DNA of 64,000 bases from Nereocystis luetkeana (Eukaryota; Sar; Phaeophyceae; Laminariales; Laminariaceae). Each line of letters starts with the position of its first letter. Within the stretch, counting starts at the first letter, position 1. Below, in pieces: positions 7,101 through 63,868 of the stretch. The stretch lies in NCBI GenBank assembly GCA_031213475.1, contig JARUPZ010000019.1, positions 62,001-126,000 on the forward strand, in the 5' to 3' direction. The position numbers and the translations under genes are program-made. The notes beneath the pieces were generated by a model, which did no database searches, was not told the origin of the DNA, and saw nothing but the letters and a program-made list of their open reading frames with translations.

Positions 7101-10100
7101 CAAGCGCGAAGCACCGTGAGGTGTTGGGTGAGTCGCATGACGGGTGAGCTGCATCCTACTAAGAACCGCTCGTGAGGCGGACTTGCATATGGATGACAGC
7201 TTCAATGAGGGGGTATACTCATTATCATGCATGCCCCTTGTCTTATGACCAAAGACCCTCGCATCCCTACAACGCCGGGACGGAGAACGTCGAGTTTTCA
7301 CCGACCAGGCGGACATTGCTTGCACCATGTGCGAAGCGCCGTAAGACCAGCCGCACGAAGCCTCCTAGGTTTGTACCGCCGTCAGCTTATGTCCACGATA
7401 CACGCTTCCTACGCGTATCGTCGGGGCTTCCTGCAGCGCCATATCGCGACGGGGATTCTCTTCTGCTACTGCCAAGCCCACCAACTTCCACCATTTCTTC
7501 TCGGGGAAACAGACGACGCGCACAGACAGTTGCGCGATTTCCCAGTCGCCTTCACATTTCCCCTCGAGCGGTGGCCACCCCCCCTCTCCCGGTGCAAGCA
7601 ATGCCTGCCTGGTCGTTGAAAACCCGGCGTGCTCCGTCCCGGCTTTGTAGGGATGCGAGGGTCGAAGGCCATACGACTACGGCCATGCATAACATGGGTA
7701 CACCCCCTCCCCCCCCCCGCCCCCGCCCCCCCTCCGTATGCCCTTCCTTTTCTCTCTCGCGATGGTCTCACCTTAACCTTTTTGGTGAGGGAGTCGCCCC
7801 CCTTACCGGCCCCGCGGATAGAGCCTGCGCCCGCGGCTCCGGATCTCGCGCGCTTACTCCCAGCGCCAAGAATAGCGTTGCTCCTCTTGCCAGGGACAGC
7901 GATGTTGGTGTCTTGAGGCCTTAGCTGGAGGCCTTGGTAGTCGGCCTTCTGCTTGAGAGCGCGCTGCGCCATCATCATCTGAGGAAAATTACAGTTGGGC
8001 GCCGGCGCAGGCACGTGCGTTGGGTCTTTGCTTACTGTAGTGTTCAAGGGGTATGCACCATGCGCTATGCGCGGGAGGAGGCGCAGGCGAGAGGGGTCTC
8101 GGCCGCGGGCTCGTCAATGATGCGTGAAAGTGGAGGGAAGGAGTGCAGGGGGGGGGCGGTGGGGGGGAGGGGGATTCCCTGTCCGCCTTGTCAAAAAAGA
8201 AAGAAACCATGCGGATTTGCAAGATCCATGGGCATCAAAACGACGGTGTATCTGCCCCCATCCCCGGGCTATGTCACGCCATCTACACAGAAAACCCCAA
8301 TGCGGCTGGGTTCATCGTTCAGTATCCCAAGAACCCTCCAGACGTTTTCGTCTGTTTTTTCCTCGCTCACTATGTCGCACACCTCGCCAAGGCCCTGCCG
8401 ATGGCCGGCTTGCTTTCCATTAGTGACCGCCTCCAAGAGATCGACCGTCGGCTGCGGTGTCAGCAATCGCGCCACCCATCACCACCTCGACCCACGTCCA
8501 ACCCGCGCCTTCTATTACGAGGGACCATACCTGGTAGTAAATAGGACCGATGCCACACGCAAAAAAACTATACATTTACCTATTTTTACTAAACATATTT
8601 GGTCCTATTTACTATGGCCGCACGTAACGGATACAGTAAGTCAAGGGGGAGCGAGGCAACACACCCCTTAACCCTCACAACTAGCGCAAAAATTGCAGAA
8701 GTTACCCTACTCTAGTCTCATAGTATTACTATTAATAGGGTGCCCCGAAAACGTGGACGTGATTCAGAAAGGGGCAAATAAAACCCGATCGAAAATGTAC
8801 CGGCGGTAGAGAGTCGTGTTGCCTTTGCTGCGGGAAATTCATCATGGCCATCTTGAGGCGATGGCCTGCGTTATCATGCCACACGCCAGAACTGGCGTGC
8901 GCTGACGACAAATAAAACCACATCCGAACCAGCACAGGCGGCACGATAGGAAACTATGGGGCCTCGCACTAATGTCAGCCCTCGAAATCATCAATGTTAT
9001 TGGGCAGCGCACCGCTGTTTGTGTCTGTGAGTGTTCCACGACGTCACCAAACCTGAGGGATATCCCACGCGGTGAAGGATAGCTATAACCAGAGCGCGGA
9101 CGCCGTCCGATCGGCGCCGCATCCCCTGCGGGTCGTGGGAGCACATCGCGTCCCAAAACGAACGAACGAAGTAACGCACGCACGCATGCACGCACGCACG
9201 CACGCACGAACCTGGACGTCTGCAACCTTCTTCGCGCTCTCGTTCGTCCTGCTCCCGTCCGTATGCATCGCGCACCTCTGCGGCATGGTCAAAAACACGC
9301 TGGACTGCGCGGGCACGACCACCGTGCCGTCCATGTAACCCGCCGGGTGCGCCTGTCTCGGCGATTTTGCGGCAAGGGAAACCCTCGCATCGCTGCCGCC
9401 ATCGCCGCCCCAACCGCCACGGCGGCTGCCACTCTTCCCGCGACTCGTATTTTCATGCGTGCGACCGTTACCCAGACCCGCCTTTGGCTCAAGCGCACCC
9501 TTTGCGCTGTGTTTCGACCCGCCGCCACTGCCCCCCCTCCCTCCCTCGCCGCCACTGCCACCACCGCCACCGCCACCGCCATCGCCGCCGCCGTAAGCCC
9601 ACGGCAACCCCAGAAGGTCCTCCCCACCGCCCGCCGGGGAGGACGACGACGGCCTCCTGCCGCCACTCCTACCGTCGCCACTCCCACCGTCACCACTCCT
9701 GCTCCCAATGTCGCCACGATCACCGCCGCCACCGCCGGAGCCGCCGCCGTCACTGCCGCCCGAGCGGCCCCCCTTACCGCTGCCGCTGCCGGCGGCAGCA
9801 TTCGAACCGCCGGCGTCGCCCCCAGGTTCGCCCGGTTTTCTCCGTGGCGGGCCGGAGGAGTTAGCCGCCGGAACAACCCTACTACCCCGGGCAGCCGAGG
9901 GGATCGAGGAAAGCTTCGTCGTGCGGCCGGCCGCTCGCGAATCCGAAGGGCGGAGGATTTTTGCGTCGCTGCTCGGCGGTCGAATTTTCGCCGCGGAGCC
10001 GAACCGCGCCGTCCCGATGTCCTCCCTGCGCCTCGCCCCGGCCCCGATTATGCCCGACAGGCTGGGCGCGGGCCCGCGTGGCGCCGCAGGCTGTGGGCGT

Positions 10101-13100
10101 CCCAAAACGTTCGCCATGGCGATCGTCGCTTTAAAGGCCTGGAAAGAGTTCGGGTTTTGGTTCATGCGGCCTGCGAGAGGGAGGGACCACGCACAAAATT
10201 TAAAGTCCAGAGGTTGGGTGAAGGAGTGCTCTATGTATGTATGCATGTATGTATGTATGTATGTATGCACGTAGCTCTATCTAAAGCAGCAGACATGTTC
10301 TTGAACGGCGCAGGCACATGGAAGGGCGGACGCAAGGACGGGGCGGGACAGCCCGACCAGACCTCAACCTTGTGCAGCGTGCGTCGGGTGATTCCGTGTT
10401 GGGTTATTGCGCTGCAGACGCACGCACGCGGGTTGAGCCTCACGCCGGTACATACTACATGATAGCACTGCTGTTGTTCCCGCCAAGGACACACCTGACA
10501 TGGCGCTTCCATTGTTGCCGTTGTTTTTGTTGTTGTTGTTGTTGTTGTTGTTATTCTTGTTGCTATTGTTGCCCGCGTTCGCTTTGTTCTGCAGGGGGTT
10601 CTGGCGCTGGGCGCGGTTGAAGGCTGCGACGACGTGGAACTCGCAGTACCCGCCGCCCTCCACCTTGTTGACCGGCATCGTGCACGGCTTGCCGTCCTTG
10701 CGCGTGCCCTTGCAGAGGGCGTAGTCCATCGACATGCCCACTTTGCTCATCTGGTACAGGCGGTGAGCAGTATTGCAGGATACACACGGAGAAAGCGAAA
10801 CGTGAACAGGGGCAGGTTGACCTAAGAAACGGCTGGCTTTGATTGGCGGGTCGTGTTGAATATATCGCGGGTTTGCTGGATAGGAGGTGTACCTTACTAG
10901 CCTCCCAAGGTAACCAAACACTACGAGAGTTACATACCTGAATATCAGGTACTGAAGATCACTTATTTATTTTTTCCTCATCACTGCTGTTACTTTCCAG
11001 CTGCTGAACTCGTTGGAGGTTTTTCCCTCAGCGATTTTCTGGACAAGCCGTGGCAACAGGTATCGTCCCTTTTCCCCCCGGGTACGTGTATTCATTTTTA
11101 TCGCGCATAGGGTTCAACACTCCCACTGCTCGTCGATTTTTATCGAGTGTTGCTAACTCACACTCTCGCGCTTTCCGCTAGTCAATTTTCAAGCGAGAAC
11201 AAGTACCTGCGAGCATGCACTCGGCAAGACTTTAACTCACGAAATTGATCTTGGTAGTAGGCACGCGGACCACCTACCAAGCCACCGGGGACCATGTACG
11301 TATATAGCGTGGTTTGCTCCGGTGAACTGCAGCAGTACGACAAAAATAGGTTGGGCAACGCAGTACCCTGGACGACGCTGTGGCTCCTCCTTGGTCGATC
11401 GTGCGGATGGCAAACACGAAGCTCAAAGTGGACGACCGCCTGTCCCGCACATTAGCTCGGGCTCGGGCAACAAGGGGACCTGCAAGCATACTGACTGCTG
11501 TTGGACTGTTCACCACTGTTCTTCCCGTGACTGATGGCATGCATCGCCCAGGTGGAACTCACGCAACAACAGCAGGCACACATGGGCAGTAGCGTGGTAA
11601 TTCCTTTAAAATTCCGCGATATTCTGCCATCGCTACCGCTGTTTCGCGGTTACAGCAGCCATCGCTATACTGCTGACCGACATTGCGGCAGCAGTATTAC
11701 GGGGGACCATAGTTAATAGGACCAAATATTGTTAGTAAAAATGGTTCAATATATAGTTTTTATGTATACCATAGGTCCTATTAACTATGGTCCCCCGTAA
11801 TAAATGTATTACCAGGTATGTGTTGTAAATTTAGGCAGCGTTCAGTACCCAACGTTTTACAGCAGTCCGTCCGTCGATCGACGTCAGCCCTTTCGCGGCC
11901 TCTGAGATCGCTTCGTCCGATAACTACTGCTGTGAGAGCCGCATGACCCTCGCTTTCAACACAATCAATGTTATGTTTCGCCGTTCACAGCAGTTTCAGT
12001 CGTTCCTCGTTGAATCATGCCTGGTAGGTACCTGGTACCAGGTATCAGTTTCAAAATTCCGGTCTACCTGATAAGTGACGCGTGGCATCCCCACAGATCT
12101 CCCACGCTATTAATAGTATGGTATCGTCTTCAAGTTTTCTGACTTGTTTAACGTTCTCTCGTTGTATCATATTTAGCGATACGTGAAAAAGCAATTCCAG
12201 TCTTTGGGTCGTTCAAATAACAACGTGTTCCACGTCTAGACTACCCATGCAACACATAATGCCCTCTCCGGTGCCCAGATGCAAGCTCGGCGATACGCTT
12301 GGTGATTAGAATCCGTTCATTGTAAATATGTGCGGCCTTGGGCTCGATTCAATGAGCGGGCGTCGTCAGACGCAAACCCTTGTTTGCATCTCTAAAACAC
12401 TTCACTTGACGAAGTGCCCCATCTCCCATTTATGTATATACCTCCAGAGTATCATTTGGCCGCTTGCTTGCTCATAGCTTTACGAGCGCACATCATGAGC
12501 GCCACGAAACACATTGTCATGTACTCGTGTTGCTCTACCTCGTACCTCGTACTTACAGGTGGAGCGGTATACCAGGTATGGTACACACGTATCATACCCT
12601 ACGTGCCAAATATATACCAGTACCAGGTACCTGGTACGCCGCTACTGGCTGCTGTACTGGCACAAAACGACCATACATACCTGCCAGGGAGAGTCAACCG
12701 AGAACGCCAGCTTCTGAGCATTGTTGCCGCCACCACCACCACTACGGCCGTCGTCCTTGGGCGGCAAGACCTTGGCGCTGAGCACCGCCACCAGCGTCCC
12801 CAGGCACGTCGTCCAGTGCGAGCTCAGCGCCTCCTGGAACAGAAATACCGACACGTCATTCTCCTTCCGAGACAGGTCGCTCAGCGTCCAGATGGAGTAG
12901 CTGCCTCCGTTCGCCGCCTGCCGCCGAGGCGACTTCGACACCAGCACTCCGAGCACCGCCCACGCGTCGGAAGGCTCCTGGCTCTCGAGGGCCCGGATCG
13001 GGACCGAGCTCAGCCCGGCCAGCCGATGCACCTTGCGGCCCTTCATACGTACCCGCATATCTTCCGCCGAGAGAAGGCGGTTGCGTACTCGCAAGCCCGA

Positions 13101-13487: not shown

Positions 13488-14469
13488 CCTCCTCCCGCGT
13501 CCTTGGCTGCTGAGGCGTGGGGCGTACGGCGCGCGGTCGCACAAGTACAGGGGACACTGGCTGAACGACCCCGGAAATTTAAAATCCAGACATGCTATCC
13601 GGATCATCACACGATCTATTTTTAAATCGCGTACGACTTACGAGTACACCCTGGTATATCCAAAAAACAAGCAAAATGGGAACAGCAGAACAGAGTAGAC
13701 TCTCAACTCGAAATCTACGTCTTCTTTCTATATCCAGTGTCTATACGATTGTGTTCGTACGCACAACGCACGCGCCACCGCCGCGGCACCCAACGCGTCG
13801 TCGAACCATCCAGCGGCGGCTGCATCTCGCGGGGGACTTGGTATTTCTCTGCCAGAGCGCTCCATACATAGCAGCGGTGTAGTATTCGGGTATACCTGGT
13901 AGTGCGTAATATATGCATGTGTGGGTTTGAATTGAAGCTCTCACACCTCGCACGGATCATGATCCACAGCAGATCATCTATCTTTACTGTCTACTACTGT
14001 ATGCACGAAACAACACAGCAACGGTTGCTTGTTGTACAGTACGTAGTTCTTCACCTACTTGCCTGCCCTTATGAGAGGTTGTGCAGGATCTTCTGCACAG
14101 CAGTACATATCTAACCCAGGAAATATGTGCTATAGATTGTGCGCGATCATAATACGGGTTCCACTCGGCAACATGATGAGTAGTTACGCTGTAGATAGGT
14201 CACATGCAAGATCGGGATTAGACCTGCCTTGAAACATCTACTGCTGTTGGAGGTCATGATATCATGATGAAGGGAGAATCGATCTGCTGTCCGAGGTGTG
14301 GATGACTAAACGAATTGCCCTACGCAGGATCCAAAGCTACCAGGTAACAACGATTAAGATTTGCCCCAAACCGTCTTGCATTACAATCTTCGTCCAGAGA
14401 ATTACGCACTTATTTGTGTCCAATGTGATGGAGTAGCATATTTATCTTATAGGAACGTACATAATTACC
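13488..14469. other. 5' flank of MCM10
   Basis: No further exon was supported. It presumably contains the MCM10 promoter, but no TATA box or other named site can be assigned. TACCWGGTA words lie at 13893 and 14338. The stretch 14100-14180 resembles sequence near 35230 and 62500. Confidence 0.4.
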
Positions 14470-14618: not shown

Positions 14619-14752
14619 CTTGATCTTCTGTATGGGAATGCTCGTATTTGCATACCAGGCTAGTTTCGGTTGACATCTGGGCTGAGTTGTATCCCTGGCG
14701 AAGCCCACTATGATGTCGCTCACTCGAGTTCTCTCCCCTTCTCTCAACTCAT

Positions 14753-17086
14753 TTGAGGAGCGAAGCTCGTGAACTACAAGCAGCGTGCTCTACTCACCAC
14801 CGACATCCCTGTGCCCCTTACCAGCTTATATATCTGCCCCCTCTTCACATTTGGCGTCGTCAAAAGGACACGAACCTGCGCGTGAACGAGACCCTGGACT
14901 CTTTGGGCAAAGGATGCATCTTCTCCCTGTTCGACCTCGTCTCCTCCTTCCACCAGGTCACCATCGATAAGGGCACGATTCCCCTCACGGCCTTCTGCAC
15001 GCCCAATAGGCTATTAGAGTGGCCCGTCATACCGCAGGGCAGCAGCGGCGCCCCCGGCTGGCACGTCAAGGTGATCAACGGGGTCATCAAAGGCTTGGAA
15101 CGCGCCGCCACCGTTTACCTTGACGACATCATCGTCTACGATGCGGATCCCGCAGCCCACACCGCCAACATCCAAGCCCTCTTCCAACGCCTTCGTCTCC
15201 ACAACCTCAAGCTCTCCGCCGCCAGGACCAGGATTGGCGCCACCAAGGCCGACTTCGTGGGACATACGATCTCCCCCGCTGGCGTTAGCCCTAACGCCGA
15301 CAAGGTCGTTGCTTTGACCAAGATAAGGTTGCCGTCGAACGTGAAGCAAACCCCCGCGCTCATTGGCGGAAATGGCTACTACCGCAAATTCCTCGGGAAC
15401 CTCTCCACATGCCTACGCCCCGTCACGGCCCTGCTCAAGCAAGGGGCCAAATTCCTTTTCACCCCGGCCATGGAAGCGACCGTCCGCGAGATTCACCGCG
15501 AGCTCGCCACTCCTTCGATCCTGGTTTTCCCGGACTACGACGCTGTCGTCGACAACTCCCGCCCCTTCCGCTTGTACTGTGATGCCAGCCGCGACGGCCT
15601 CGGAGCCACTCTCGAGCAGGAAAAACCAGGCGGCTCCGTCCGACCCATCCTGTTCATCAGCCGCGCCACCTTAGACTCTGAACGTTCTTGGACCCCCCTC
15701 GACCTTGAACCCGGTAGCATCGGTTGGCCCATCATGCGGCTACGCGGTCACCTGTCGTCCTCCAAGTTTGTTACCTACTCCGACCACAAGGCTCTCGAGA
15801 ATATCGCCAAAGTAGGCGAGCACAACGCCCGCGTGCAGCGTTGGTTGGAGTTCCACTCCGCCTACACATACACGCTGGAGTACCGGAAAGGTACGGCCAA
15901 TGGCAACGCCGACTTCCTCTCCCGCCTTCTCCAGCCAGCCACCGACGCCGACCGCACTGGATCCAACCGCCTGACCAGCCCCGACACCGTGGGCATCTAC
16001 CTTATCCGTCCCTGCGGCTTCACGCCTTGCAAACCCTCCATACCGGGCATCGGCTTCGGTGGGCTCGTACTAACTCCCTCCCTTCCCATCCCGGTCATCC
16101 GACCGACCCCCTTCACTGACGACGACTACGGCGACTTCCGCCGACTTGGACCCTCCATGGGTTCCTCCGGGCCTTCCTCGGCCCCCGAACCCTTTGTTGG
16201 GTCTATTTCGACCCACGACAACGCCGCCGGGTCCATCGCCAGATCCGCGAACTGCGCCGTGGACGCTGGCGCTCCTCTTGGCTTGGCTTTCAGGCTGCCC
16301 TTCGTCTCTCCACCGCCCACCATTGGCGCCACAACTCCAGCTCCTACGGACCTGATCTCTTCGCGGACCCGCCATCGCGCCGCCGCCGCCGCCGCTGGCA
16401 TCCCCTGCGCTACCGCCGACTATGGTTGCGGCCGCCGAGCAACGGTGACCACACACCCAAAGTCTGCGCCTACCCGCCCCCGCGCACCCGCAGCCATGGA
16501 CAAGGGACCACCACATCCTTCCGAACCAACAACCCCCCAGGCCGTGCCGCCCGAGCCACCAGCGCAGCCGGCGCTGCGAGCGTCCATGGGCTCAAGATCG
16601 CCTTCGGCATCATCTTCTTCCCCACCTAGGCCCCACACCCCCGAGCCTGCCGTCGCGCCCAACAACGGTCTTCCAAGACCGGCTTCAGCACGACCTCTTC
16701 CACGATCTCCGGTGTCGCCCTCCCTTCTCCTGCCGGAGTTTGCCGACGACAACCCCCACTTCCTCTCCTGTTTGGAGCACTTTACGCACACGGACTGGGC
16801 GCGCGAACAAGGCGTCGAGCCCCTCTGCTCCGGTACCCTACACTACCTTTCCGTGCACTCCCCGGCCCCCCCGCCGCCCGGCCTCCTGGATCCATTCCAG
16901 CCGTCTCGGCGCCCGTCGCTTCCAGATGTGCTTGCCCTCGCAGGAAAAATCCAACTCCACCGCACCGACGACAACACCGTTCTCCTGGTTCGACAACCAC
17001 TTAAGCCTCACCACACCGGAACCAGCTGCACATCCTCCACCGCACCACCCCCGCGCATCTACGTTCCGATGTTGATGCGCCCTTAG
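14753..17086 (+). pseudogene. Gypsy RT-RNase H segment
   Basis: The recognisable match begins around ETLDSLGKGCIFSLFDLVSS (about residue 44), so the N-terminal RT fingers are absent. The RT active-site box YLDDIIVYD is intact near residue 121. RNase H carries YCDASRDGLGATLEQ near residue 275, with the expected Glu and Asp-containing segments downstream, and DHKALENI follows near residue 343. From about residue 425 the frame is a Pro/Ser/Ala-rich spacer without recognised domains. It ends at a TAG; the same frame continues directly into the integrase, so a single substitution or a read-through stop separates the two. Confidence 0.88.
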
Positions 17087-20339: not shown

Positions 20340-20510
20340 GTTTTAGCCAAAATCAGGTATACCAGGCCACTTTTCGGCCAAAATCACTTACCAGGTACAT
20401 ACTAAAAACAAGGACAAAACACACCCCAGGAGCCCTGCTATTGGCCACAGGCTGAAATCGTAACTGATTTTGGCTCGAAAAGGCCAAGGTATACCTGATA
20501 TTTTCTACTC
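20340..20510. repeat. Small fold-back element (CTGATTTTGGC arms)
   Basis: GCCAAAATCAGGTATACC at about 20346 faces GATTTTGGCTCG and GGTATACCTGAT at about 20463-20500. A related short palindromic unit at about 25446-25477 reads TACCTGATTTTGGC to GGATCAGGTA, flanked by TA. It may belong to a TA-targeting family. Confidence 0.55.
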
Positions 20511-22838: not shown

Positions 22839-24595
22839 TAATTTGTGCTTTTCGAGCGTGCGCGCTGGAGACAATACGAATGATTATGATAGTGTGCCTC
22901 CAGACACCAGTGTAGCGATTGCCGAGGGGAGGGCCCCGGAGATCACTGTTACCTAGTTGGGAAAATATGGGCATGAGATGCAGGTTACAGTATTGTCTGA
23001 TCATCTATGTATGTGTTGAACCCTTGAGCCCAACTACGTACAGCAACACGTGAGTTGAGACTCCGTTAGTTTGCGGCATTCCACATATTTATATCTTTAT
23101 ACGCGGACATCTCGTTTTTAAGTTTTTGAGTTGATGTGTAGGACCACCCATGTTACTTGATACGTACGTACCAAAAGGCGAGATGCTCGTATGTATGCGA
23201 ACGGGGTAATATTCAATAAGAGTACAGCAGCAGAAGTAGAATGGAAAGAGAAACATCCGGGTATACCTGGTATGTATTTAGTGGTCGAGGAATACATGGA
23301 TTTTATGTGGGACCAGATATTCTCGTTGACAAGCATCTGTTTATTTACAGTCGCATTTGAAACTTTAGTGGTAAAGAGGAGTTGGAAAGCTGTTAACACA
23401 TGGGAAGAGCAAAACACCCAATGCAGACCTAATCGCTCGATTGCACGCCCCATCCCTTGTGTGTGTCGGGTCATTACTGCGGAGGCGACGTTTGATTCAC
23501 CCAGGAGGATAAGCTGGATGACCCGAGCTGCGGCGACGCCACGAGACCGGACGGAGAGGCAGCCGCGGCGGAGGCAACAGCAGTAGTGTCTGGGGTATCG
23601 GGGTGGTTTCTAATGAAATGTGATTGCCTGTGAATCTGAATGAATGATTTCATTGTTTTTTGTTTTTGAATTGTGTTTCCGGTCGATTTGGATTCCACGA
23701 GAGTTTTTGGTATTTTCCGAGTGGTCGCAACGTCAAATATTCTTCTAGTGGGGAAACCTATGTGCTATCTCGCATTACCGTCGCGATCTGTGTATCTATG
23801 GCGGGAGTAGGGGATAAGGGGAGACTCTTGTCCGGAGGAACGGGGTTCCTCGCGATCTCTGGCATTAAGTTTCTTGACTTGATTTTTTTATTGGCATGAC
23901 CACTCCTGTGGTATTTTTCTGATGATACTTGTGATTTACCTGGTAGGTTTTTGACAAGGCTGAAGTGAGACTAGGAAGCGCCTGGGGGCGTGTGCGGTCC
24001 ACATAAAAATGTTTTCTGACGAGGGAAGGTTTGGATAGAAGTTCGGAATACTGAGAGAGAGGTTGGTAGGACTGAACACTGAAATGCCAGGGGGTGCATA
24101 CGGTTCGGATTGAATACTTTTCGTTTTCGGTTTTTGGTAACTAACACGCTGATTATTTGTCGACAGGATTGGAATTTCTACAATTACGTTCGAGTCGATT
24201 TGCGTTTTACATTTTCTTGAAAGTGGACGAATATACTTGGATCAATTCCGCGGACAACGCCGTTTTACCTGGCTGAATCCCGAGAAGAGTGCCGTTTTAC
24301 CTGGCATTGGATTTCGAGAGTTTTACATGTTTGGAACAGAGAGGCTTTGGATTTGATCGTTTGAATAATTATATGACGATTTGAGTGTTGATTCGAGGAC
24401 TTGATTTTTGAGTTGCAGATTGGAGTTTTGAGTTTCTGAGTTTGGTATGAGGTGATTCTGATATTGCGATCTATCAACCCTGCTATTTCGTGCCTTGTCA
24501 TGCACCGGAACAGGGGGGACATTGGTAGGGTCGTGTACAGTGTTACCGACCTGGGGGGATATTGGAGTATGGTCGTGTATAGTGAGCAGGGGGGA

Positions 24596-31277: not shown

Positions 31278-32606
31278 CACCCCGATTTCATTTTCTAGAG
31301 CCTTCGGGGCAGATAAATAGACCCCTTACTTATGTGCATATATGATATGCACGGTCTATTGTACTGCGAAGAGCACATTTTTTATTCCCGGTTGGATCTG
31401 CTAAGACACGGCCACTGTCGCGCATGCATGTCGGGTGGGGTCTGTACGAAACGGCTCGCGCGCAACATCTCCTACGTATATAGCGGCGCAAGCATATGTT
31501 AAGAAAATAATTTGAAAACAGCAACAGCTGTGAGATGCGAGGATTTCGTCGAAACTCATCTCTGCAAGCTGTTTGCGATACTTCGATCGCGCGTACTATA
31601 TACGGGTTTTCTATATACCAGACAAGCGATGGGGGACCTAGATGGTCTGGATCGGGATCTGTCGGATGTGTGAATCGCTCTGCTCATTCTCGCACCCTCA
31701 CCTTTGCCCGAACCATGAGGCAGTCCTGTTTTTCTTTGCGCCCCTATTTGCAAAATCTTATAACGGCAAATGTAGGATCTCCATGATCTGCCTGGTAGAT
31801 TGTGATCTACATGTCCGATGTCTGATTTGTTCTGCTGTTTCTCATATCTTTGCGTTCACCCCGAGAACCATGGCGGCATCTTCCCTTTGCGACGCAACAT
31901 CTCCTCGCGGCAAACACAAGAAAGGGCCTAGACGGTCTAAGACCGTGATATGTTTGATTTTATGAATCGTTCTGCTCAATACATCTCTTATCCTCTCACC
32001 TTTGCCCGAACCATCGCAATTCTGAGGCTAACGGGCAACTGGGGCTGGACCTCCTGCCCCCCACCCGGCGGTGCGCTAGCACTCCTCCGGCGCCAAGAGC
32101 TGTACCCTTCTGTCAGCCGTTGGGCCTGAAGTAATCCAAGAAACAGAGAGATAGAGAGAGAGATCTATTCTTTTCTTGCGCTGATGCGTGGTTCGACAGG
32201 GTCAGCAATCTATTTTTTCTCGAGCCTCCTTCACTTGAGGATCTCCGTACCTCACCCGAAAAACTGGCTTTCGAGAAGATGTGTACCTGGTATGCTTTTA
32301 AACCCGATACACAATCCCATGACGTATACCGGGTAGATGCTATCACCAACGAAAAAATATTGAGCTACCCAAACGGGATATGGCATGCCTCGTAAGTGTC
32401 ATGCCTTATTGGATACCAGGTAGTCCCTCAGGTGAGAACCTCCACCAGGCCCAGTGACAGTTTAGCCGAAAGGTGCTATAATATGGCATCGAGGCGATAA
32501 GGCATGTCCTATCGTGGCACCAGTCCGCTACGAAAACTGCTGCCTTCTCGTCGAAGCTTCTCAAAGCTACGGTGTTGAAAGGTTGACACAAACTGCAGCA
32601 GTGGTT
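31278..32606. other. Intergenic, GATCT-rich
   Basis: No gene. Two related ~250-bp segments (about 31560-31760 and 31780-32020) share GGTCTGGATC-like and CCTTTGCCCGAACCAT sequence, an old duplication. TACCWGGTA words lie at 32284 and 32414. Confidence 0.4.
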
Positions 32607-32704: not shown

Positions 32705-32817
32705 TTACGGGGGACCATATTAAATAAGACCTACCTGGTACGGTAAAAACAAAAACCCATATATATTCAGCTATTTTTACATGCAATATTTGGTCCTATT
32801 TACCATGGTCCCCCGTA
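32705..32817. mobile_element. M1 MITE copy 3
   Basis: TTACGGGGGACCATAT at left, ATGGTCCCCCGTA at right. It carries a TACCTGGTA insertion at 32732-32740. Confidence 0.88.
32732..32740. repeat. TA-CCTGG-TA micro-insertion in M1 copy 3
   Basis: Sister copies read GACCTACGGTA here (33848, 35516, 58708). This copy reads GACC-TACCTGGTA-CGGTA, so CCTGGTA has been added after a pre-existing TA. Confidence 0.88.
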
Positions 32818-36683: not shown

Positions 36684-39600
36684 TCACTGGATCATCGTCT
36701 CGACGGAAGCAGACTTCCTTCTTCTTCGGCCGTCCTTCAAGCCACCGCCGCCGCCGCCATGACCAACATCCGCGCTACCGCTGCCCGATCTGTGCGCGTT
36801 CCCGCCACCATCGGCCGCTTGGGTGGGTGCCGGGGCCTGCGGTGGCATCGCGTCCAGTTTCCGCCTGTTCCCTTGCCCGACGTTTTCTCCCAGCGAGGTT
36901 TTGGTCGAAGCTCCTCCGACTCTGATAGTCAAGTTCTCGGGAGGGTACAGCCGCTCCCACCCCTTCAGAAGCTCCGTTTCCCGTGATAAAACTTCGGTGT
37001 CGTGCTGCGAGAGAGGGAAGACATCATAGAAAGGGGGTTAGACGACCACCAAAACGCGTTGTAGAAAACATATTTCGAGCTTCCAGGTACCACGCAATAA
37101 TTACCGGTATATCATATTAGCCGCTAGGGCTACACTTGTTCGTAGCGCGCGGGGATTAACTCGAGCATTATGTGCGCAATTATACCGTTGATACTACAAC
37201 ACTATCGTTGACGGTGTCGTGCTGCGAGAGAGGGAGAGGACAACAAAAAAGGAGGACCTTTAACAATCTGGGAGGAGGGATCTTTAGGTTGGTAGGCTGT
37301 TCAGGTGTTTTGGTTCCTGTTGGGATCAAGGTACGGGCGAAGACCCGACCCAACCCCTGACTCTAACCCTAACCCTAACCCTAACCCTAACCCTGACCCC
37401 AAAACGAAGCCAAAACGGGCCAAAACTCGCCACAAACGCGGCTGCGCCGCGTTTGCATCGAACCAGGAAATTTCTCAGATGGGGGCGACGATTCCGAAGT
37501 GCAGACCACGGGACGCATTTTTCAAGTCAAGAATATCCCTAAAGATCCCTTCTCCCAGATTGCTAAACCTACTCCAAAAAAGGGGGAGAGACGAACATAT
37601 TTCGAGCTACCAGGTACCATAAAACTGTTACGGATACATCTTATATTATTGGCCGCTAGAGCCGCATTAGTTCGTAGCGCGCAAGGGTTACCTCGAGCAT
37701 TTTTGTGCGTACCATATAATACCGTTGATACCACCACACCGTCGTTGTTGCAGTGCCGTTGATATCACCACAATACACCGTCGGCGTTACAGTTTGTAGG
37801 CGCCACGTACCCTATCAACGAAAATATCCCTCCCGCCCGCCCCCCGTCCATCCACAAGCATCACCGAAACGCAACACATCTCCTCTTTTTCGATCTTAAG
37901 CTTTCCCAGTGACATTTTCGAATGCTGCTTGTAGGTCCAGCTACCTCTGTTGCCAGGATTGGCGGGGACGTGGGCGTGAGAACAGGAGCAGAAGACGCAA
38001 TATGTGCCTCTTCCTTGCTGCCTTTCTTCCACGGCGCCCCGGCGGCGCCTTGCGAATCCGCTGCTTGGAGAGGGGGGCAGCTCCCGGACCGAATCTCGAC
38101 CTCCGGACCCTCGTCCCGGGCGGCAATCTGAGGGAGACAATCAGCGCAGGCTAGATGATTAGGGTCCGATCGGGGGAGGGTAGATGCGTAGGAACCCAAT
38201 TAGGGCAGGCTAGATGCTTGGGGGTCCAATCAGCGCAGGATAAATGATCAAGGGTCCAATCAGGGCAGGGTAGTTGGGTAGGGACCCAATCGGGGAAGGC
38301 TTGGTGCGGATAGATCCGATCAGCGCAGGGCTAGATGCTTAGGGATCCAATCAGCGTAAGCTATCGATGATTTTTCGTAAGGAGGAAAAGCGTAGTTTTG
38401 TTTTCGGTGAGGAGGCTTGATTGATCAACCAGTGGTGCCAATGGTATGTGGAGACAGTCGGTTTGAGCGGTGCATTGTACGTACAAAACACGCGGGGGAG
38501 GGGAGAATTGGTCTATCGCAGTACATGCGATGCTGATGACGACTTCTGGTTGCGGTCCGATCTCCACACGTTTTTACGCGGAACTGAGGTGGTTGGCTGC
38601 AGCGGGACCGAAGGGCACGCTGCAGATAATGCGAGCGGTATGACCACCTTGGAGTATGCGAGCGTACTCGAGCAAGCGTTTGCCCCCAACAAGGTCGTAA
38701 TAACAGCGACGATTTCACGCATTCATCACACCCTCAACGAGGGAGTACCGGAAGTTCCGCATGACCGGCGACGTACAGATCGACACATTACCATAGTTCA
38801 AGTCTCCGCCGCTCCTGGCGAATAGTCCGGCCCTTCTAGTCACGTACGGGGGCGGGTAAAAGAATCTGGGTGCATTATGTTGCCCGGCTCGACGATTAAG
38901 CGCCCGCCTCCTTCAAACGTAACCTATTAACCATTTGATTGGGTTTGCCGTATCCCCCCCCCGCCCCCCAGGAAGGGGATACTATTAGTGAAATGTTTTT
39001 ATGTAAGATATGGGAACGACGTGACGGGCGCCCAACCGTTTGGGGTACCTCTGTTACGTGTAGGAACGGTGCTCCGTCTCGAAAGGGATGCGTGGCCAAT
39101 GATCAAACGACTAAGGCAAGCAATGCGTGAGTACCCCCCCCCCTCCCCCCTATAGGTTGGGTTGAGGTCGGTTGGTAACGGTACTGTAAAGTATGCCGCT
39201 CACTACTTGAGCTAGACAACCAGGGTACCGTTTTTCTTCTTTCTGTTTTTTTGACGGGCGCCCACAGCTGATGGTCGAGTTAGATCATTTGTGCGAGGTG
39301 AAGAACCTTTACTCCGCACAAGGGAAATGATCTGATCACTTACTGTAGTATTTATGGTAAGGTACCCAAGAGGCAGTTACATAGTAGCCCCATTACTGTC
39401 GCTGGAAGTGGCTGCACCGGAAAATAATTTCACCCATTGAAGCTGCCATCCACGCGCAAGTCCGCCTCACAAGCGGTTCTTAGTATTACGGGGGACCATG
39501 GAAAATAAGACCGAATATTGACAGTAAAAATAGCCAAATAAACAGTTTTTTGTGTTCCCCACAGGTTCTATTTACTATGGTCCCCCGTAATAGGATGAAG

Positions 39601-42600
39601 CGCACCCTACATGCGACTCACCAGACACCTGACGGCGCTTCGCGCTTGGTGTAAGCGATGTCTGCCTGGTCGGTGAAAACCCGACGTGCTCCGTACCGGC
39701 ATTTTACGGATGCGAGGGTCGATGGTCATACGACTACGGCCATGCGTGATATCGAGTACACCCCCCTCCCCCGCCGACCACCAGCCTAATAGAACCCACC
39801 TGTCGCTCGGCTGGGTCCAAGATAGGCTCAACAAGGTCGTGTGGAGGCTCTGCTTCTTCTGCAGCTTCTCTCGCAACACTGCCGTGCGCAGGAGCAGCGG
39901 ACTGCACTTGCCCCTCCCCGCCCCCATCGCACGGAGTCGCCCCCGCCCCCCCAGCTCCACCACTTTCTCGAACTTGCGCATTGTTTTGTTTTGGAGGGGA
40001 GGAATGGGGAGGGGGAAAAGGGGAGGGGGGGGAGATAATTCCTTGTGTTATCGTGGAGAACACAAGTCGACACGAGCAGTATGGTGGAGAGGTGGTAGGT
40101 GAGGCGCTCATAATGGGGAGGGGGGCGAAGGGCAAGCTCCGCCGACCCACGAGTTAACGCCAGGCTATATAAACCCGGCCGTAATCCCCCCCCGTCCAGC
40201 CGACTTTTGCAATCGATGAAAAAAAGGGCCCAGCAGTTCGGTGGGCTTATCTGGTCGCGCTATTTTTTTCTTCATCATGCTGCTTTCACCTGGGTCAACA
40301 TATTTCCGGCGAACCAGCCGCAACAGCTTGCCCTCGTTTCCTGCGTATCTGGCCAACAGGCCGTCCACCTTGCTGATCTTGTGTGGAGCGAATCGCAGGT
40401 AAATAGCAGATACCTGTTTCGGTCGAAGCAAACAAAGCAACAGGAGCAGCAGAACATGTACACACGTACCAGATTCTTTGTCATTCAGCATCTCAAAAAT
40501 CAAGAACTGCGAGATTTTGACGGTCGAAGTCGCGAAAGGGACTGAGGTAATCTTGGCCGAAACGTCAAGCGGAAAGCTCGCGTAGGGACGAAAGAAAGAC
40601 AGAGGGGGCGGCATAAAATCGTGAGCCGAAAAATTGAAATCGTCAGCCAATCGTGTACCACACTACTACTTGTACGATCTGATATCCGCTACCAGGTATC
40701 AATTTTGTCTCACGGCGGGGTCGTCTGTAAAAAACGTAATGCCTTTACGAACACGAGGTTATCGAGAACAGCGCTGAGACTCTGGCGATGTCTCCTTTTT
40801 TTTTCTGGGCATGCGGTCGACACTCGCTGCTGCTGCTTATGATAGCGTGCTTGGTTCGCCGATTTGACGTCGAATTTCCAGCATCCGCAAACGAAAAAAA
40901 ACAGAAAAGCGGTATCTTTTGGCCCGCAAAGGCCTCGTTTGGTCTCAAGATACTTTTTTTGGTGTAGGGGGTGGTCAGTCAGGGGGTCAAACCAACATAT
41001 CCAACGATAGGAGTTTTTCTAAAACACGAAGAAGAGATGTTTTTCACTGGAATGCGCTAACGTTGCCCCTCGTGTCGGGTCAGGCTCTAGCTCTCACTTC
41101 TTTCCTTGACAATGAAACCACGCTCTTCGCAAAGATTTTGCAAAATTATACTGGTAAGAAACACGTCAGGTGTTCGACCGATGGAGTGGTTAATAGTCAG
41201 TATTCTAAGCTGCGTGCTACATCGCGAAGCGAGTGAGGCTTCGCCTTGCAGTACTTGCACTATTAATAGTACCGTCGGTTTATATTTGCGAAATAACGAC
41301 GAAACACACGCGTTACCTTTTTGCGTGTGGCAGCCACAGCCGCCTCCGCCTCCGCCTCCTTCCGCTCCTGCTCCTTCAGCAGAGACCCAGTGGCCGCGTT
41401 ATCGGGATTATACAGCCGGTTCTGCGCGTCCCTCTTCTCGTTCTCCTCGAACCGCCTCTTGTCGTCAGGCCTGGCGAGAAGGACGGAGAGGGTCGTGGCG
41501 ATGACCTGCGACTTTATCCGCTTGTCCATCGGCGAGTCTGTCGCGAAGCTAGGCAGATGGTTGACCTCGATCAACCATGGCTTAAGCGCCGCGTCGATCA
41601 TGAAATCGAACCCGAGGACCTCGACACAGCGAGAACCTTCAACCCCTCCACCCTCCCCCACGCCCCCCCCCCCCTCCTCGCCCCCCCGCAGAGGTTCCGC
41701 TTCCATCAAGGTGTTCATTGTGCAAGCCCGGCCCTCCACCTAGCCCCCCTTTTCCCTCCGCTCGATGGCACTCTCTAGTAGCATTCTTCGTACGGTCGTG
41801 TGTTGGGCTGTTCTCCCGACCGACTTGGGGAAATTCTCCCCCTGCGTCTCCGAGAGGAAGAGGAGATGAGGTGTCCTGCTTCCCTTCGACACCGTTTACC
41901 TGGGGGAATGGGTCCGCTGGTGCGTGCCCAAGGTTGTTGTTGGTAGCTGCGTTTTCTGAGGCAAGTTTGTCTCCGGCTCCTCCTTGGCGCTCGGCGGTAT
42001 GTTTTTCGCTGCGGCTACTTTCGGGTGGGGGCATATCCTTGTCAGGGCCGAAGGTGAGAAGATAGTCTCGCTGGAGCGTCGGAAGGACGGAAATCAGCGT
42101 CTTCACGATGGCGTTGCCCATTTTTCGCCACAGCGTGTCCGCCTTATCCTGGCCGCGTTCCGAAGCCACCCACCCCAGTAGCCAGCGCAGGCTACGCTTG
42201 CTCCCGATGTCGTCTCGGTCGGTGTCGTCGTTGGTGACGAAGTTGTTCGAGCGCTTGTTCACGGCGTAGTTGGTGAGATGCATGCACCGGTCGCCGAGGT
42301 TGTCGCTAGCGGCCCGGGTGTACTCCTCGGTACAGAAGCGGGCGAGGCCGTCCTCGAAGACGTACACGCGCAGGGGGGTCACGCTGGTGACGAGGACGTA
42401 CATGCGAAGGTCGAACTTGAACCCCTCGATGAGGAGCGGTTTCTGGATGTACAGCTGCGCCACCTGGCTCTCGATGGCGGCCACGCGCTCGAGGTCTTGA
42501 GTAAGGAAGATTCCTCTGCCCTGGCAGCCACTGTCCGGCTTGACGATGAAGGTTCGGGTCGACTTCCCGCTCCCGTCGAACTCTATCTTGAACCCTCCCC

Positions 42601-43946
42601 ACTCTGCGGGAAGAACCCACGTCCTCGGGTAGAAGCTGTACTCCTGGGGAAACGAGCGTCTCATACGGTCGAGGTTTTGCGCGAGGCGTCCCTTGCGAGC
42701 GACGTTTGACATGCCCGGGAAGTGGTTGATCCGTTGCCATCGGTGGAGTTGCTGCGTGCGCTCGACGATGGCGGGCACGTCGACCCAGTATACGTGGCAC
42801 TTTCGGGCGGTCGATTCTGGGTCTTCGTCCACGAGCTTCCAGCCCCTTGCCCGAGCCGCGTCTCGCACTGCGTCATACTTGCAGTCTGCGATACACATCA
42901 ACACCTGAGGAACGGAGAGATGAAGGAAAGGAAAGGAAAGGAAAGGAAAGGACGGGGTAGGAAAGGAAAGGAAAGGATGTGGACACCACCAGTGTGCGCT
43001 GTGGATAAAGAGCGTGCGCAACGTCGGAAGCGTGCAGGGTTGCTTCGGATGACATGTCTTGGAGACAATGTGGACAGGTCCGATTTTCAGGAAACGTACA
43101 GGCGCAGGCGATTGAGTGGTTCTCCAGCTCTATGCAGCATCCTCATATCCTCATACGAAGTACGAGGGAGGAGAGGCGGGTGTCCAGGGCTTTGAAAGCT
43201 CCGACGTTGTCGGCGTGCTGCCGGTACTGTTCAAGGTGGCAGCAACGGGAGGGCGCCGACAACGTCGGAGCTTTCAACCCCCGAGACACTCGTCTTTCCT
43301 CCCTCTTCTGATATCTTAGAGGTATGTACATAAACATGTACCAGGTATACAGCATGAGTCAAATCAACGTTACACTTGACATTGCATTTGCTAATCTTTT
43401 TTTTGTGCAATGTTCCTTCTAATTTTTGCCTCGCAGTTTGTGACCACAGAGCTGACGCCTCTCGATGGCGAAGAATCAGCACAAACACTGAGCGTGCTGG
43501 ATATCGATGGATAGGTGAAGGGGACTTCAACGGGAAACAAAACGTCGGATTTTCTTCAGACGATTACAGCGTTCGTCACAAGAAGCAAGCCAGGTGGCAG
43601 CTGAGCTACAGCACTACCTGGTACCTGGTATACATGAAGGGGTTGCTGCTGAGCTACTGTGTCAGTATGTATAAGGGGTTACGCCTGAACTACGTGAGGT
43701 AAAATACAAGGAGATCTCCAACGCGCGCCCAGCATGGTACTACAGCAGTTTTGCCATCGTACTGCTGCGTGTTCCCAATCCATGATAGATAGTTGATGAG
43801 ACCGACTCTGTAACATTGATTTGGTTGCTCAGTACATGGATCCCAAGATAGCACACACATACACACACCTCGGAGGAGTTCGGCGGCTTCTTCCTGGATC
43901 TTTTGAATGACACCGCCCGAGCTTGAGGTGCAGGACTGGTTGTCAT
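36684..43946 (-). CDS. TTLL tubulin polyglutamylase, 7 exons
   Basis: Adds glutamate chains to tubulin tails; acts on flagellar or cytoplasmic microtubules (family knowledge; nearest type TTLL6/13). Minus-strand exons: 43946-43869, 42904-41900, 41739-41317, 40413-40290, 39972-39800, 38127-37945, 37004-36684. Phases agree at every junction, giving about 768 aa. The TTL domain shows INHFPGM (85-91), KPDSGCQGRGIFL (148-160), GFKFDLRMYVLVTS (187-200) and, after a ~90-residue low-complexity insert, GFDFMIDAALKPWLIEVN with Asp406, Glu419 and Asn421 as likely metal ligands. Exon 4 carries a conserved IYLRFAPHKISKVDGLLARY-type motif. The last exon has the WERLYPP segment that resembles the conserved end of TTLL proteins. 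The stop TGA (36684-36686) overlaps a GTGAGA donor-like site, so a further exon is possible. The weakest junction is the acceptor at 41740, which lacks a pyrimidine tract. Confidence 0.9.
37358..37397 (+). repeat. Interstitial telomere-like (CCCTAA)n
   Basis: About five hexamers of CCCTAA, preceded by CTGACT and followed by CCCTGACCCC. It lies within TTLL intron 6. Confidence 0.85.
38137..38362. repeat. ~36-bp minisatellite, about six units
   Basis: Degenerate units containing GCAGGCTAGATGCTTAGGG and TCCAATCAGCG. It lies in TTLL intron 5, ending (gene sense) about 10 bp before the exon 6 acceptor at 38127. Confidence 0.8.
39055..39145. repeat. M4 repeat copy
   Basis: GGAACGGTGCTCCGTC, GGATGCGTGGCCAATG and ACTAAGGCAAGCAATG also occur at 62785-62850 with point changes. 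Ends at GAGTACCCCCCCCCC, the same terminus type as M3. Confidence 0.6.
39440..39775 (+). mobile_element. M3 repeat, copy 6, split by an M1 insertion
   Basis: The left part (GTCCGCCTCACAAGCGGTTC) is interrupted at TA by M1 copy 6 and resumes at GGATGAAGCGCACCC. It then continues through CATACGACTACGGCCATGCG to a C-rich terminus. Lies in TTLL introns 4-5, clear of exons. Confidence 0.82.
39486..39590. mobile_element. M1 MITE copy 6, nested in M3
   Basis: 105 bp, TTACGGGGGACCATGG at left and CATGGTCCCCCGTAA-type arm at right, flanked by TA on both sides. The uninterrupted M3 copy at about 7155 supplies the empty site (complement of CTTAGTAGGATG). Confidence 0.93.
42922..42975. repeat. (GGAAA)n microsatellite serving as pyrimidine tract
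   Basis: On the coding (minus) strand this is (TTTCC)n directly upstream of the TTLL exon 2 acceptor CTCAG|GTGTTG. Confidence 0.85.
43150..43312. repeat. Fold-back element in TTLL intron 1
   Basis: The perfect inner arms TTGAAAGCTCCGACGTTGTC and inverse lie at about 43190-43213 and 43258-43281. Imperfect outer arms extend this (GGGAGGAGAGGCGGGTGTCC against its complement). Confidence 0.8.
43615..43630. repeat. Chained TACCTGGTA words (same orientation)
   Basis: TA-CCTGG-TA-CCTGG-TA in TTLL intron 1. Another single word lies at 43339. Confidence 0.9.
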
Positions 43947-45593
43947 GGGGAAGGCGTCAAGGCGTCAACGACGAGCCCTGTGCCGTACCCCTCTGAATTG
44001 CATGCGTGTAGGGGTAGACCGCATGCAACAGCCACGCACTCAACTAACGTGGACGCCGCTGGGCCGGCTCAACGCTGTGACGGACAACAAATCTGTGTTG
44101 ATACTCTCACGCGGACTGATGCTGATGCGTGCTGTGCATGGATCCTCCTCTCCGAAACCGGAAAGCAAAACACGCCTGATCTCGTGTGTTCTATGCCGGC
44201 CGTAATATGCTCGTGCGCCCGGCTTGCATTGACCTGCTCACCGTTGCCTGGCGCGTACTCGGCACCTGGATAGGGCAATTGGGCTGCAGCGGCTGCGAGG
44301 CAAAGACAAAATAACGGCCCACCCCGATAATCTTTGGGAGAATCTTGGATTGGAAAACATTCCCTTTTTGCCCCTACTGGAACTCCCGTCGAGGTCTCGC
44401 CGCAGAATTCAACGTAATCGGGATACACCTCGCATCAATTGTATCACTGTCCCAACCTGCGACATGAAGCGTGCGAGTGAAAGCTAGACCTCCACTAGCA
44501 GGGGTATATACAGAGTAGAAGCTCGAACGATGTGTACAAAGGAGTTGCCAGAGCAAGGAGAAGGAAATGGAGATGGTTGAAACATCTGTATATCCGCACG
44601 AAGTACGTAAAATACGTATTGACACACGTATGGACAAGATTCCCGTCTACTCCAGTTTGTACGTACAACACGTGCTGTAGTTCAAGTCAAGTCTATTAAT
44701 AATAGTCTTGCTCACGATGACATGGGCTTGTATCGCTCGCGTCGTACCCTCCTGACCAACTGTGTCACAAGGTACAGCTGTGGCTCGTGAGCAGCAGCAG
44801 TAGACTACCAGGTATATGAGTATATCTATAATAATACACAGCAGCAGTACTCCTACGAAGGATGAAATCAGCGGGGATACTTGTGGTGGATATCGACGGG
44901 CGAGAAATAACGGAGAAACACACACGCAGCTGAGAGACTAGAGACCTAGGATTTTGACTGGATATTTATTTCCTCCGCAACTTTTGACTTTTTGAACTCA
45001 AACCATCACTATATACGTCTGTATCATAAAAATTCATACCCACGTTTGTTGTTGTTGTTGTAGGTACCAGTTTTTTTTTTTTTTTTTTTTTGGTACCAGG
45101 TATAATGATACCCGGTATGAGAGTACGTATACCCAAGACATCTCATATCATACGTAGAAAACAATTTTTTACCTGATGATGACCATACGCGGCACACGAG
45201 TCACTGCAAATCACAGCACCATAAACACAACAGATCACAAAGCAGCATCTGGTCCGAGCGAACCCACCCACCCACCAACCCAGGCACCCACGCATCCACC
45301 CCCAACCACACCAGCTTCAGCAGTGGCAACGACGCTTCGCGTGGTGAGTGCCGTCTAGACGACAGCAGAGGTGCGGCGGTGCCAAGTAGAGGTGAACAGC
45401 CCGTCCGTGATACATACTGCTGCTGAAATAATCAATCAATCACAGACCACAGAGTGGGTGAAAAAAGGCATGGATACCGCTGTCCGTGAATGTAAGTAGC
45501 TTTCTTCAAGTAATTTACAAACAAAACGCTCCTTAAATGTATGGACATAAGGGTATGCTGTAGTGTATGTACAACCTGGTACCTGTCCGAACA
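43947..45593. other. 5' flank of TTLL, no further gene
   Basis: No additional exon supported. At 45061-45102 GGTACCAG, a T23 run and TGGTACCAGGTA form a small palindrome-flanked homopolymer. A TACCAGGTA word lies at 44806. Confidence 0.4.
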
Positions 45594-51964: not shown

Positions 51965-51980
51965 TACCAGGTACCTGGTA
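51965..51980. repeat. Chained TACCAGGTA/TACCTGGTA words in an arm of unit 2
   Basis: The right arm, read inverted, has CAAC-TACCAGGTACCTGGTA where the left arms have CAACTATAA. This is a third case where a TA appears expanded. Confidence 0.8.
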
Positions 51981-52410
51981 GTTGATAGGATATACCCGCG
52001 GCCTGTTACAGCAGTATTATTATTATTATTATTAAATAGTTCAGTTTGCACATTGATTTCATCTTCTGTGCGCCTTCTTCGTCATAAATGGTTTTTCGGA
52101 TCTTCCTAGGGCTCCAGCACCTTTTGTGCGACCTCAGACTCCTTCCTCCCTTGAAAACAACACTCCCTACAACAGAGGAAATTATGTACCAGGTAGGCCG
52201 CCTCGATGGCGTCTTTGTCGGCCCTGCGGGCGGGCATGGTGTCGCGGGTGCTTGCACGGAAACTTCTAGCGCGGTGGGGCGTCGGCCATCTGAGAGGTGA
52301 TAACACTCTGCCTGTCTTTGTGCAGGTTCTGCTGCCCCTCACTAGGTCCCCCCTGTACTGAGCTGCAGGATGTAGAGAGCGGCAGAGCGGGGTGACGGCC
52401 CCCCGCTTAA

Positions 52411-52506: not shown

Positions 52507-52600
52507 CCCTTCTAGGACCCCAGTCCCGTTTTGGGGACGAACCACTGATATTTTGAGTGCTTTGTCCCCACATATGGGAGTGCGGTGCTAAAAGGTTTAA
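52505..52600. mobile_element. M2 palindromic MITE, copy g
   Basis: Variant subfamily with GGACCCCAGTCCCG at left and CCACATATGGGAGTGCGGTG at right. The variant right arm is shared with copy h at 56308. Confidence 0.82.
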
Positions 52601-52856
52601 GTGCGGTGCCCGCACTATTGAACGGCCGGTCCCGCTATAGTGCTCGAGCCGCACTACCGTGGGCCGTGGGACGAAGTCGTGCTTGAGGATTTCCCCCCCG
52701 CACTAAAGTGGGGCCCCGCACAAATGAGTGCCGCACTTTGCGGGACCATAATACTGATGTGCCTCGTTGCGTGTCCAATGCTGGTTACATCTTTTGCCGC
52801 AGACTCCGGGGTATTTGCTTCCGCTCTTTTCTTTGCTATACTCGTACTATTTACTA

Positions 52857-52961
52857 TTACGGGAGACCATAGTTAACAGGACCTATGGTACACATAAAAA
52901 CCTATATGTTTAACCATTTTTACTCACAATATTTGGTCCTGTTAACTACGGCCCCCCGTAA
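52857..52961. mobile_element. M1 MITE copy 7
   Basis: 105 bp, TTACGGGAGACCATAG at left and inverse at right, flanked by TA on both sides. Confidence 0.9.
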
Positions 52962-52963
52962 TA

Positions 52964-56745: not shown

Positions 56746-56761
56746 TACCTGGTACCTGGTA
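56746..56761. repeat. Chained TACCTGGTA words (same orientation)
   Basis: TA-CCTGG-TA-CCTGG-TA. Confidence 0.9.
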
Positions 56762-56999: not shown

Positions 57000-57236
57000 A
57001 CGGGGGGGGCATTGTAATCAGAACCGACGATGGGCCCCAAAACCAGGTGCCCCCCTATATGCCTACACAACATATTATAACCACAATGATGACAGCAGTG
57101 GCCCCTCTATATAAAGTGCCGGCTGCCCGCTCTAGCGCTGGTTTTACGAGGGGCCATAGAAATTAGAACCCACCATGGGCCCAAACACTACGTATCCCCC
57201 TGTGTATACTCACCATATTTTGGTTTCTGATTACTA
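57000..57236. repeat. M1-related variant elements
   Basis: GGGGGGGCATTGTAATCAGA and TTACGAGGGGCCATAGAAAT resemble the M1 end. The inner segment CCGACGATGGGCCC / CCCACCATGGGCCC is shared with the duplication at 60747. A sister subfamily of M1 is likely. Confidence 0.5.
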
Positions 57237-57341
57237 TTACGGGGCACCACAGTAAATAGGACCTTCGGTACTCACGAAAACCTATGTATTTACCCATTTT
57301 TACTGACAGTATTTGGTCCTATTTAATATGGCCCCCCGTAA
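57237..57341. mobile_element. M1 MITE copy 8
   Basis: 105 bp, TTACGGGGCACCACAG at left, ATATGGCCCCCCGTAA at right, flanked by TA on both sides. Confidence 0.9.
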
Positions 57342-57343
57342 TA

Positions 57344-63800: not shown

Positions 63801-63868
63801 TTGCTACCTGGTATATATATGCGTTCGCTACTATCAAAGTGAACGAACTTGTTCAGCCACAACCATTG

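Follow-up and report, generated by a model that had tools for sequence, protein, structure and literature searches.

A candidate excision footprint of a TA-targeting transposon in the brown alga Nereocystis luetkeana

Why should one nine-letter, nearly palindromic word recur 30 times in 64 kb of a brown algal genome? The stretch concerned, here called the window, is positions 62,001 to 126,000 of contig JARUPZ010000019.1 of Nereocystis luetkeana (assembly GCA_031213475.1), and the word is TACCWGGTA, with W being A or T. We think it quite probable that the word is the repaired excision scar of a TA-targeting, DDE-type, Tc1/mariner-like cut-and-paste transposon with ends 5'-CCAGGG and overhangs of 5 nt, sometimes 6 nt. 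The case for its being a footprint, first put forward in an earlier note made from the window sequence, is strong but indirect.

The word and its gain at TA

All 30 positions given in the earlier note are exact on recount, and its estimate of about 0.5 words by chance agrees with Markov models of order 1 to 4, which give 0.34, 0.60, 0.63 and 1.26 (the order-5 figure of 5.1 comes from a model inflated by the word itself). The note had also called for a genome-wide count, and the excess is large: the whole assembly of 465,085,209 bases in 1,987 contigs has 182,395 sites, about 1 per 2.5 kb, vs 1,744 for a reversed-pattern control (105-fold). In a ranking of the 8- to 12-letter words of the window that merges similar contexts, TACCAGGTA comes first among dispersed words, with 20 distinct contexts among the 30 and 1.27 expected. 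TACCTGGTA is its reverse complement, the two being a single word read from two strands. Except at W the word and its reverse complement are identical; the A/T ratio is therefore uninformative on mismatch resolution and gives no ground for the suggestion in the note that a central mismatch may go to either base.

The length of the word is sharp, with TACC and GGTA separated by one nucleotide in 33 places of the window, by none in 5, and by any other spacer up to 25 nt in 0-8. One-mismatch neighbours number 0-5 each in the window (reverse complement excluded). For wider comparison we used 264 kb, consisting of the window and 200 kb of another contig of the same assembly (C1; positions are prefixed W: or C1: where needed), and there the excess of one-mismatch neighbours is about 64 vs 89 intact words, or roughly 7.5% divergence per site. 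There is mild clustering of the word loci, judged by their median nearest-neighbour distance (p about 0.01). The note had placed no word in an assigned exon, and in agreement there is none in the 5 Pfam-supported open reading frames of 10 tested (MCM10 pieces, gypsy-like pol, TTL), a check of reading frames and not a complete exon annotation. Its candidates for longer footprints, near 10938 and 46830, stay without support.

Comparison with sister copies of repeats reveals the change itself: a TA has become TA-CCWGG-TA or a two-unit chain, a gain of TA plus 5 nt (7 bp) or of 14 bp. In M1, a miniature inverted-repeat transposable element (MITE) of about 105 bp with the form TA-TTACGGGGGACC...GGTCCCCCGTAA-TA and copies in the window and C1, the sister copies bear out the pre-insertion TA that the note had proposed at 8528 and 32732, and its third case, in an inverted arm at 51965-51980, holds with TA in two copies (48767, 50907). 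In the 264 kb, 18 of 81 word loci have a listed gap-free match of at least 19/26 letters over the collapsed TA junction. One of these, W:45094, matches its own locus and is no evidence, leaving 17 empty-site loci. The best are C1:184079 (26/26) and C1:61225 (25/26), followed at 24/26 each by W:8528, W:20389, C1:92260 and C1:94926; the two-unit chain at C1:38770 has an empty site at 23/26 in an alignment of 97.9% identity. A single empty sister is common to C1:61225, C1:92260 and C1:94926, and the weaker of the 17 matches may be chance or low complexity.

As to 7-bp gains at TA between repeats of the window, 40 groups of 4-20 nt indels include the TA-CCWGG-TA form in 2 (8528 and 32732); the difference at 47796-47808 is of another form, TA-CCTCG-TA, and may be a tandem duplication. 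We rejected 37608 as an empty-site case, its sister at 37067 having a mutated word already, and 25403-25489 was ambiguous as the empty sister for 20389, which was resolved by C1:84687-84835 instead. The sister-copy gains thus have the TA target duplicated on insertion, as in Tc1/mariner, and they differ from piggyBac, with its TTAA target and seamless excision, in lying at TA and leaving 7 bp.

The sites in the window are as follows; no strand is assigned to any of them.

1870..1878, word TACCAGGTA, exact match
3756..3764, word TACCAGGTA, shorter unit TACCAG close upstream at 3748
8512..8627, M1 MITE copy, word at 8528-8536; plain TA in most sisters, CA in two
11810..11818, word TACCAGGTA, adjoins M1 MITE
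12029..12044, two-unit chain (CCTGG, CCAGG), one-sided unit close upstream
12570..12578, word, exact match
12621..12636, two-unit chain (CCAGG, CCTGG), shorter TACCAG unit upstream at 12615
13893..13901, word, exact match
14338..14346, word, exact match
20389..20397, word, TA in sister C1:84687-84835, 24/26 identical over the junction
23264..23272, word, exact match
23937..23945, word, exact match
32284..32292, word, exact match
32414..32422, word, exact match
32705..32817, M1 MITE copy, word at 32732-32740; TA in sisters
37608..37616, word, sister 37067 bears a mutated word
40690..40698, word, exact match
43339..43347, word, exact match
43615..43630, two-unit chain, same orientation, exact match
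44806..44814, word, exact match
45094..45102, word, exact match
51965..51980, two-unit chain in inverted arm, plain TA in sister arms 48767 and 50907 (+14 bp)
52187..52195, word, exact match
56746..56761, two-unit chain, same orientation, exact match
63805..63813, word, exact match

The M1 copies of the window differ from one another mostly by 10-28%, and a second word may be related to this MITE. The next dispersed palindromic word family of the window, (A)CTATTAATAG, contains TA-TTAA-TA and is possibly the M1 excision footprint, with a 3-nt TTA overhang pairing through TA. This fit makes a footprint word for another TA-targeting family plausible here. The copies are:

11695-11802, 39484-39592, 52855-52963, 57235-57343 and others, M1 MITE copies, TA target, ends TTACGGGGGACC
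8729, 12107, 41260, 47139, 60714, CTATTAATAG exact; near variants at 57362 and 62768

An M1 copy is also found in the DNA in which a Phycisphaera sp. metagenome-assembled contig, JALZVY010000272.1, ends (L010, about 7416 to 7898), and this is probably a chimeric contig with algal DNA.

Target preference, by-products and a proposed mechanism

Outward from the TA of collapsed word sites, A or T occupies position +7 on 43/50 flanks in the window (binomial p 2.7e-7) and on 96/112 in C1 (four-base chi-square p 1.9e-11), and in both T is enriched at +6 and A at +8. Positions 1-4 deviate too in C1 (p 0.0001 to 0.014) and are not significant in the smaller window sample. The two sides agree (22/25 left and 21/25 right at position 7 in the window), so that the preference around TA is two-fold symmetric, as in Tc1/mariner, and an insertion complex of the same symmetry would be expected to leave this imprint. 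Counted from either of its TAs, the word itself has T at position 6 and A at position 7, and for this reason scars should be good targets. Word TAs lie on average at the 88th percentile of target score among window TAs, a figure that is partly circular as the score was trained on the outer flanks of those loci. That scars are good targets also fits the 5 chains in the window vs 0.28 expected under random TA choice. The claim in the note that units chain through a shared TA in either orientation stands: among the 8 chains of the 264 kb the units point the same way in 3 and opposite ways in 5, the other 73 of the 81 loci being single units.

The centre is the one position at which the word differs between strands, so the strand of origin can be read only from by-products that are asymmetric. 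The most frequent has an extra G: TACCWGGGTA has 13,000 sites genome-wide (6,505 + 6,495) vs 771 for the control. The first 100 listed sites, which all fall in the initial 5.9 Mb of C1, divide into 93 CCAGGG and 7 CCTGGG. Eight of the 93 are in one tandem array (G000 C1:1304145-1308353; spacing mostly 528 bp, units with TACCAGGGTA). This link of the extra G to A implies that both derive from the same strand, as would be the case if a single-stranded overhang 5'-CCAGG(G) were retained. G slippage is disfavoured, because it should affect CCAGGG and CCTGGG equally, and pairing of a 6-nt CCAGGG overhang with a 5-nt CCAGG one would account for the A-linked form. TACCWWGGTA has 5,159 sites, and 50 distinct listed ones, all in C1, comprise CCATGG 35, CCTAGG 5 and CCAAGG/CCTTGG 10. 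Among a further 27 sites there are 10 of CCAGGCCTGG vs 1 of CCTGGCCAGG, the other 16 being of the same-orientation type, some of which may be chains minus the middle TA. The three asymmetries are explained most simply if the retained strand reads CCA..., that is 5'-CCAGG(G). A 4-nt overhang joined without pairing would give TACCAGCTGGTA; among 50 distinct TACCWGCWGGTA sites listed out of 273, this form accounts for 7 and TACCTGCAGGTA for 3.

Other TA-x-TA words are over-represented in the 264 kb, namely TACGAGTA (45 distinct vs 12.7 expected), TACCTCGTA (13 vs 2.6) and TACAGCAGTA (22 vs 1.7), with window positions at 12536, 12543 and 47796.

We propose the following mechanism. Insertion of the element would duplicate TA. 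On excision the strand bearing the 5' end of the element would be cut within the element, 5 nt or at times 6 nt from the end, and CCAGG overhangs would be left on both flanks. These could anneal, with four G-C pairs enclosing an A:A mismatch at the centre, and repair would give CCWGG between two TAs. Both TAs of the scar would suit the target preference of the element and could be hit again, producing chains. The Tc1/mariner-like transposase and the polarity of the stagger are what we infer from these patterns. The overhang length is likewise a deduction, CCATGG being possible also as the plain product of a 3-nt overhang.

The source element and rival explanations

The earlier note had predicted a TA-targeting element with ends CCAGG or CCTGG. 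The TA gain, the symmetric target, the genome-wide excess and the strand-polar by-products agree with it; the element itself was not found, and several results weigh against the proposed excision scar. In the DNA searched and at the sampled chained words there is no element with CCAGG-type ends. None of 74 TA-flanked inverted-repeat candidates in a scan of the window begins CCAGG or CCTGG except the words themselves, nor does any of those with dissimilar outer flanks among the 147 candidates in C1 and 60 in the window of a second scan, and no pair TA-CCAGGG...CCCTGG-TA within 9 kb occurs in 332 kb. The 92 one-sided words of the 264 kb have no common continuation, save three internal-repeat copies. 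Genome-wide, there are 1,299 places (control 6) in which what follows a chained word is not TA or any one-letter variant of TA, and CCAGGGA gives 122 further chained one-sided places (control 0); samples of 14, 19 and 20 of these have no shared end, the 14 being extra-G scars, 2 of the 19 having two extra G and the rest being decayed chains or unrelated continuations. The transposase search gave no match to PF13358 and 28 to PF03184, and none of the 13 DDE_1 loci read (L093-L105, with 14 of the 28) shows CCAGG ends. To these must be added that CCATGG, at 35 of 50 listed of the 5,159 sites, is simpler to derive from a 3-nt overhang CCA than from a 5-nt one, and that the 5-nt stagger we deduce exceeds the 2-3 nt stated for Tc1/mariner overhangs (PMC3878927). 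If the scar is what we propose, its source would be rare, very diverged or gone.

Several candidates for the source were rejected. Three one-sided words share GGTATGTA, which is within a repeat and not an element end, and the continuation TACCAGGGT is actually an extra-G scar followed by TA, with 7 of 14 cases in one repeat family. Candidate filled sites in the 264 kb were mostly tandem families and one further case failed. Clear inverted repeats flanked by TA occur at the DDE_1 loci L100, L105 and L095, in all three with CAGT ends, and the others read, L101 apart, have weak or no repeats (one extended locus gave nothing convincing). L100 (609-2586) and L105 (723-2954) are low-copy pogo-like DDE_1 elements with near-perfect inverted repeats starting TA-CAGTACCGGCCCGC. 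Such elements in this assembly combine TA-flanked inverted repeats with a transposase match, yet from CAGT ends the expected scar is TAC(A/T)GTA. The L100 family has 97 ends genome-wide, and 5 of the 28 PF03184 matches lie between listed ends. The left flanks of L100 and L095 end in CCAGGTA (an intact word in L100, decayed in L095); we dropped a link of CAGT elements to CCWGG scars, as only 2 of the 97 ends are beside a CCWGG unit, near the hand-estimated 1.6% for any TA. L101 has a large inverted duplication (704-2591 and 4205-6092, arms 99.5% identical) with two PF03184 matches and undefinable ends. The TTAA MITE D3 was also dropped, most of its 16 ends reading like TTAA-CCCTTTTAGG. Nine viral contigs with a chained word hold 2-3 words each, so that none of the nine is word-rich, and the M1 and D3 patterns have no match in viral contigs.

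The closest rival concerns the length of the cut. An element cut only 3 nt inside 5'-CCA ends, in ordinary Tc1/mariner style, could give CCWGG by loss of the terminal A or by A:A abutment, and CCATGG as the unpaired join. The A-first excess of CCATGG over CCTAGG favours it, as do 12 distinct TACCGGTA words vs 3.0 expected in the 264 kb, but the 13,000 TACCWGGGTA sites with their A-linked G go unexplained and a one-nucleotide mismatch joint would need to predominate widely, so that we consider it unlikely. That no source element appeared in the DNA searched would suit a tiny self-moving or templated 7-bp unit, put in by a transposase or repair polymerase without a full element; however TA duplication, symmetric preference and strand-linked variants are predictions of element excision, to our knowledge there is no mechanism for a mobile 5-bp unit, and we give this idea very little weight.

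It is even less probable that selection has spread the word as a functional motif, for instance a conserved palindromic site bound by a protein. Its palindromic form and symmetric flanks would be in keeping with that, but not the TA-to-word gains within MITE copies, the mixed orientation of chains or the divergence of roughly 7.5% per site. That a 7-bp unit grew by slippage, an alternative named in the earlier note itself, or as a microsatellite can almost be dismissed: chains do occur, but 73 of 81 loci are single units, gains are seen at TA without a prior unit, and 5 of 8 chains are in opposite orientation.

With regard to other features of the window, a palindromic MITE (2912-3003, 25256-25352, 48130-48226, 52411-52601), many of whose ends are like TTAA-CCCTTTTAGGACCGCAG, is presumably piggyBac-like. 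A gypsy-like retrotransposon pol at 14714-18349 has reverse transcriptase, RNase H and integrase zinc finger, and there are degenerate GACCCGACC-type repeat arrays at 54169-55622. The TTL-family gene at 41639-43129 encodes a protein 83% identical to one of Hapterophycus canaliculatus, and 98% and 95% to two others, a homology that points to a brown alga; no viral relative of it was found.

Known footprints and significance

Sleeping Beauty and Frog Prince footprints form by pairing with a central mismatch, and Minos leaves a 4-nt footprint.

The parallel with Sleeping Beauty drawn in the earlier note holds in part. The Sleeping Beauty/Frog Prince footprint C(A/T)GTA is described as having TA duplicated and a short, uniform, palindromic, end-derived scar, as here, but with a known element and 2-3 nt, whereas here 5, sometimes 6 nt, CCAGG(G), are apparently kept (PMC3878927). 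Footprints of 2-4 bp are quoted for Tc1/mariner (PMC7913693), and the scar here, with 5 nt between TAs and a minority with 6, is outside that range; for Passer the figure given is 0-4 bp (PMC9976928). The Stowaway/Osmar5 elements of grasses are reported to leave inverted-repeat fragments of 1-4 bp beside TAs, and 2-4 bp at one TA with 1-2 bp at the other can total 5 nt as here. Reinsertion at the TA of an older footprint is reported for them also, but their fragments are variable and here there is one dominant scar in about 182,000 copies (PMC1925063). Excision marks can be ragged, and in rice excision is reported as mostly imperfect, with 8 perfect cases among 94 putative ones in one comparison (PMC4423477). 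On these accounts scar length alone does not exceed everything described so far, and the uniformity, the number and the deduced 5-nt stagger do.

Among brown algae, the comparison is with the Mariner-Tc1 elements and MITEs of Ectocarpus, an abundant TA-targeting superfamily described there with 17 families and almost 12,000 copies; the words 'footprint' and 'excision' are absent from the main text of that paper (PMC12477816). Among the titles listed from the one open-licence library searched there is none on such footprints in brown algae. The letters of the word occur in the text of 217 papers, and the 20 titles listed of these deal with other subjects.

A clean single scar type would make end-joining outcomes, target choice and transposon turnover measurable from sequence alone, and the finding would account for many 7-bp insertions, a large class that repeat annotation probably overlooks. 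It also raises the question of how one transposon leaves so many scars and so few copies. We suggest, tentatively and as something short of an even chance, that a TA-specific transposase, its stagger an unusual 5-6 nt, moved a few elements very conservatively, or was co-opted by the host to purge them, leaving some 180,000 near-identical scars and almost no element. If this is true, scars exceed their sources by orders of magnitude, and the genome of this alga would be a dense record of excision.

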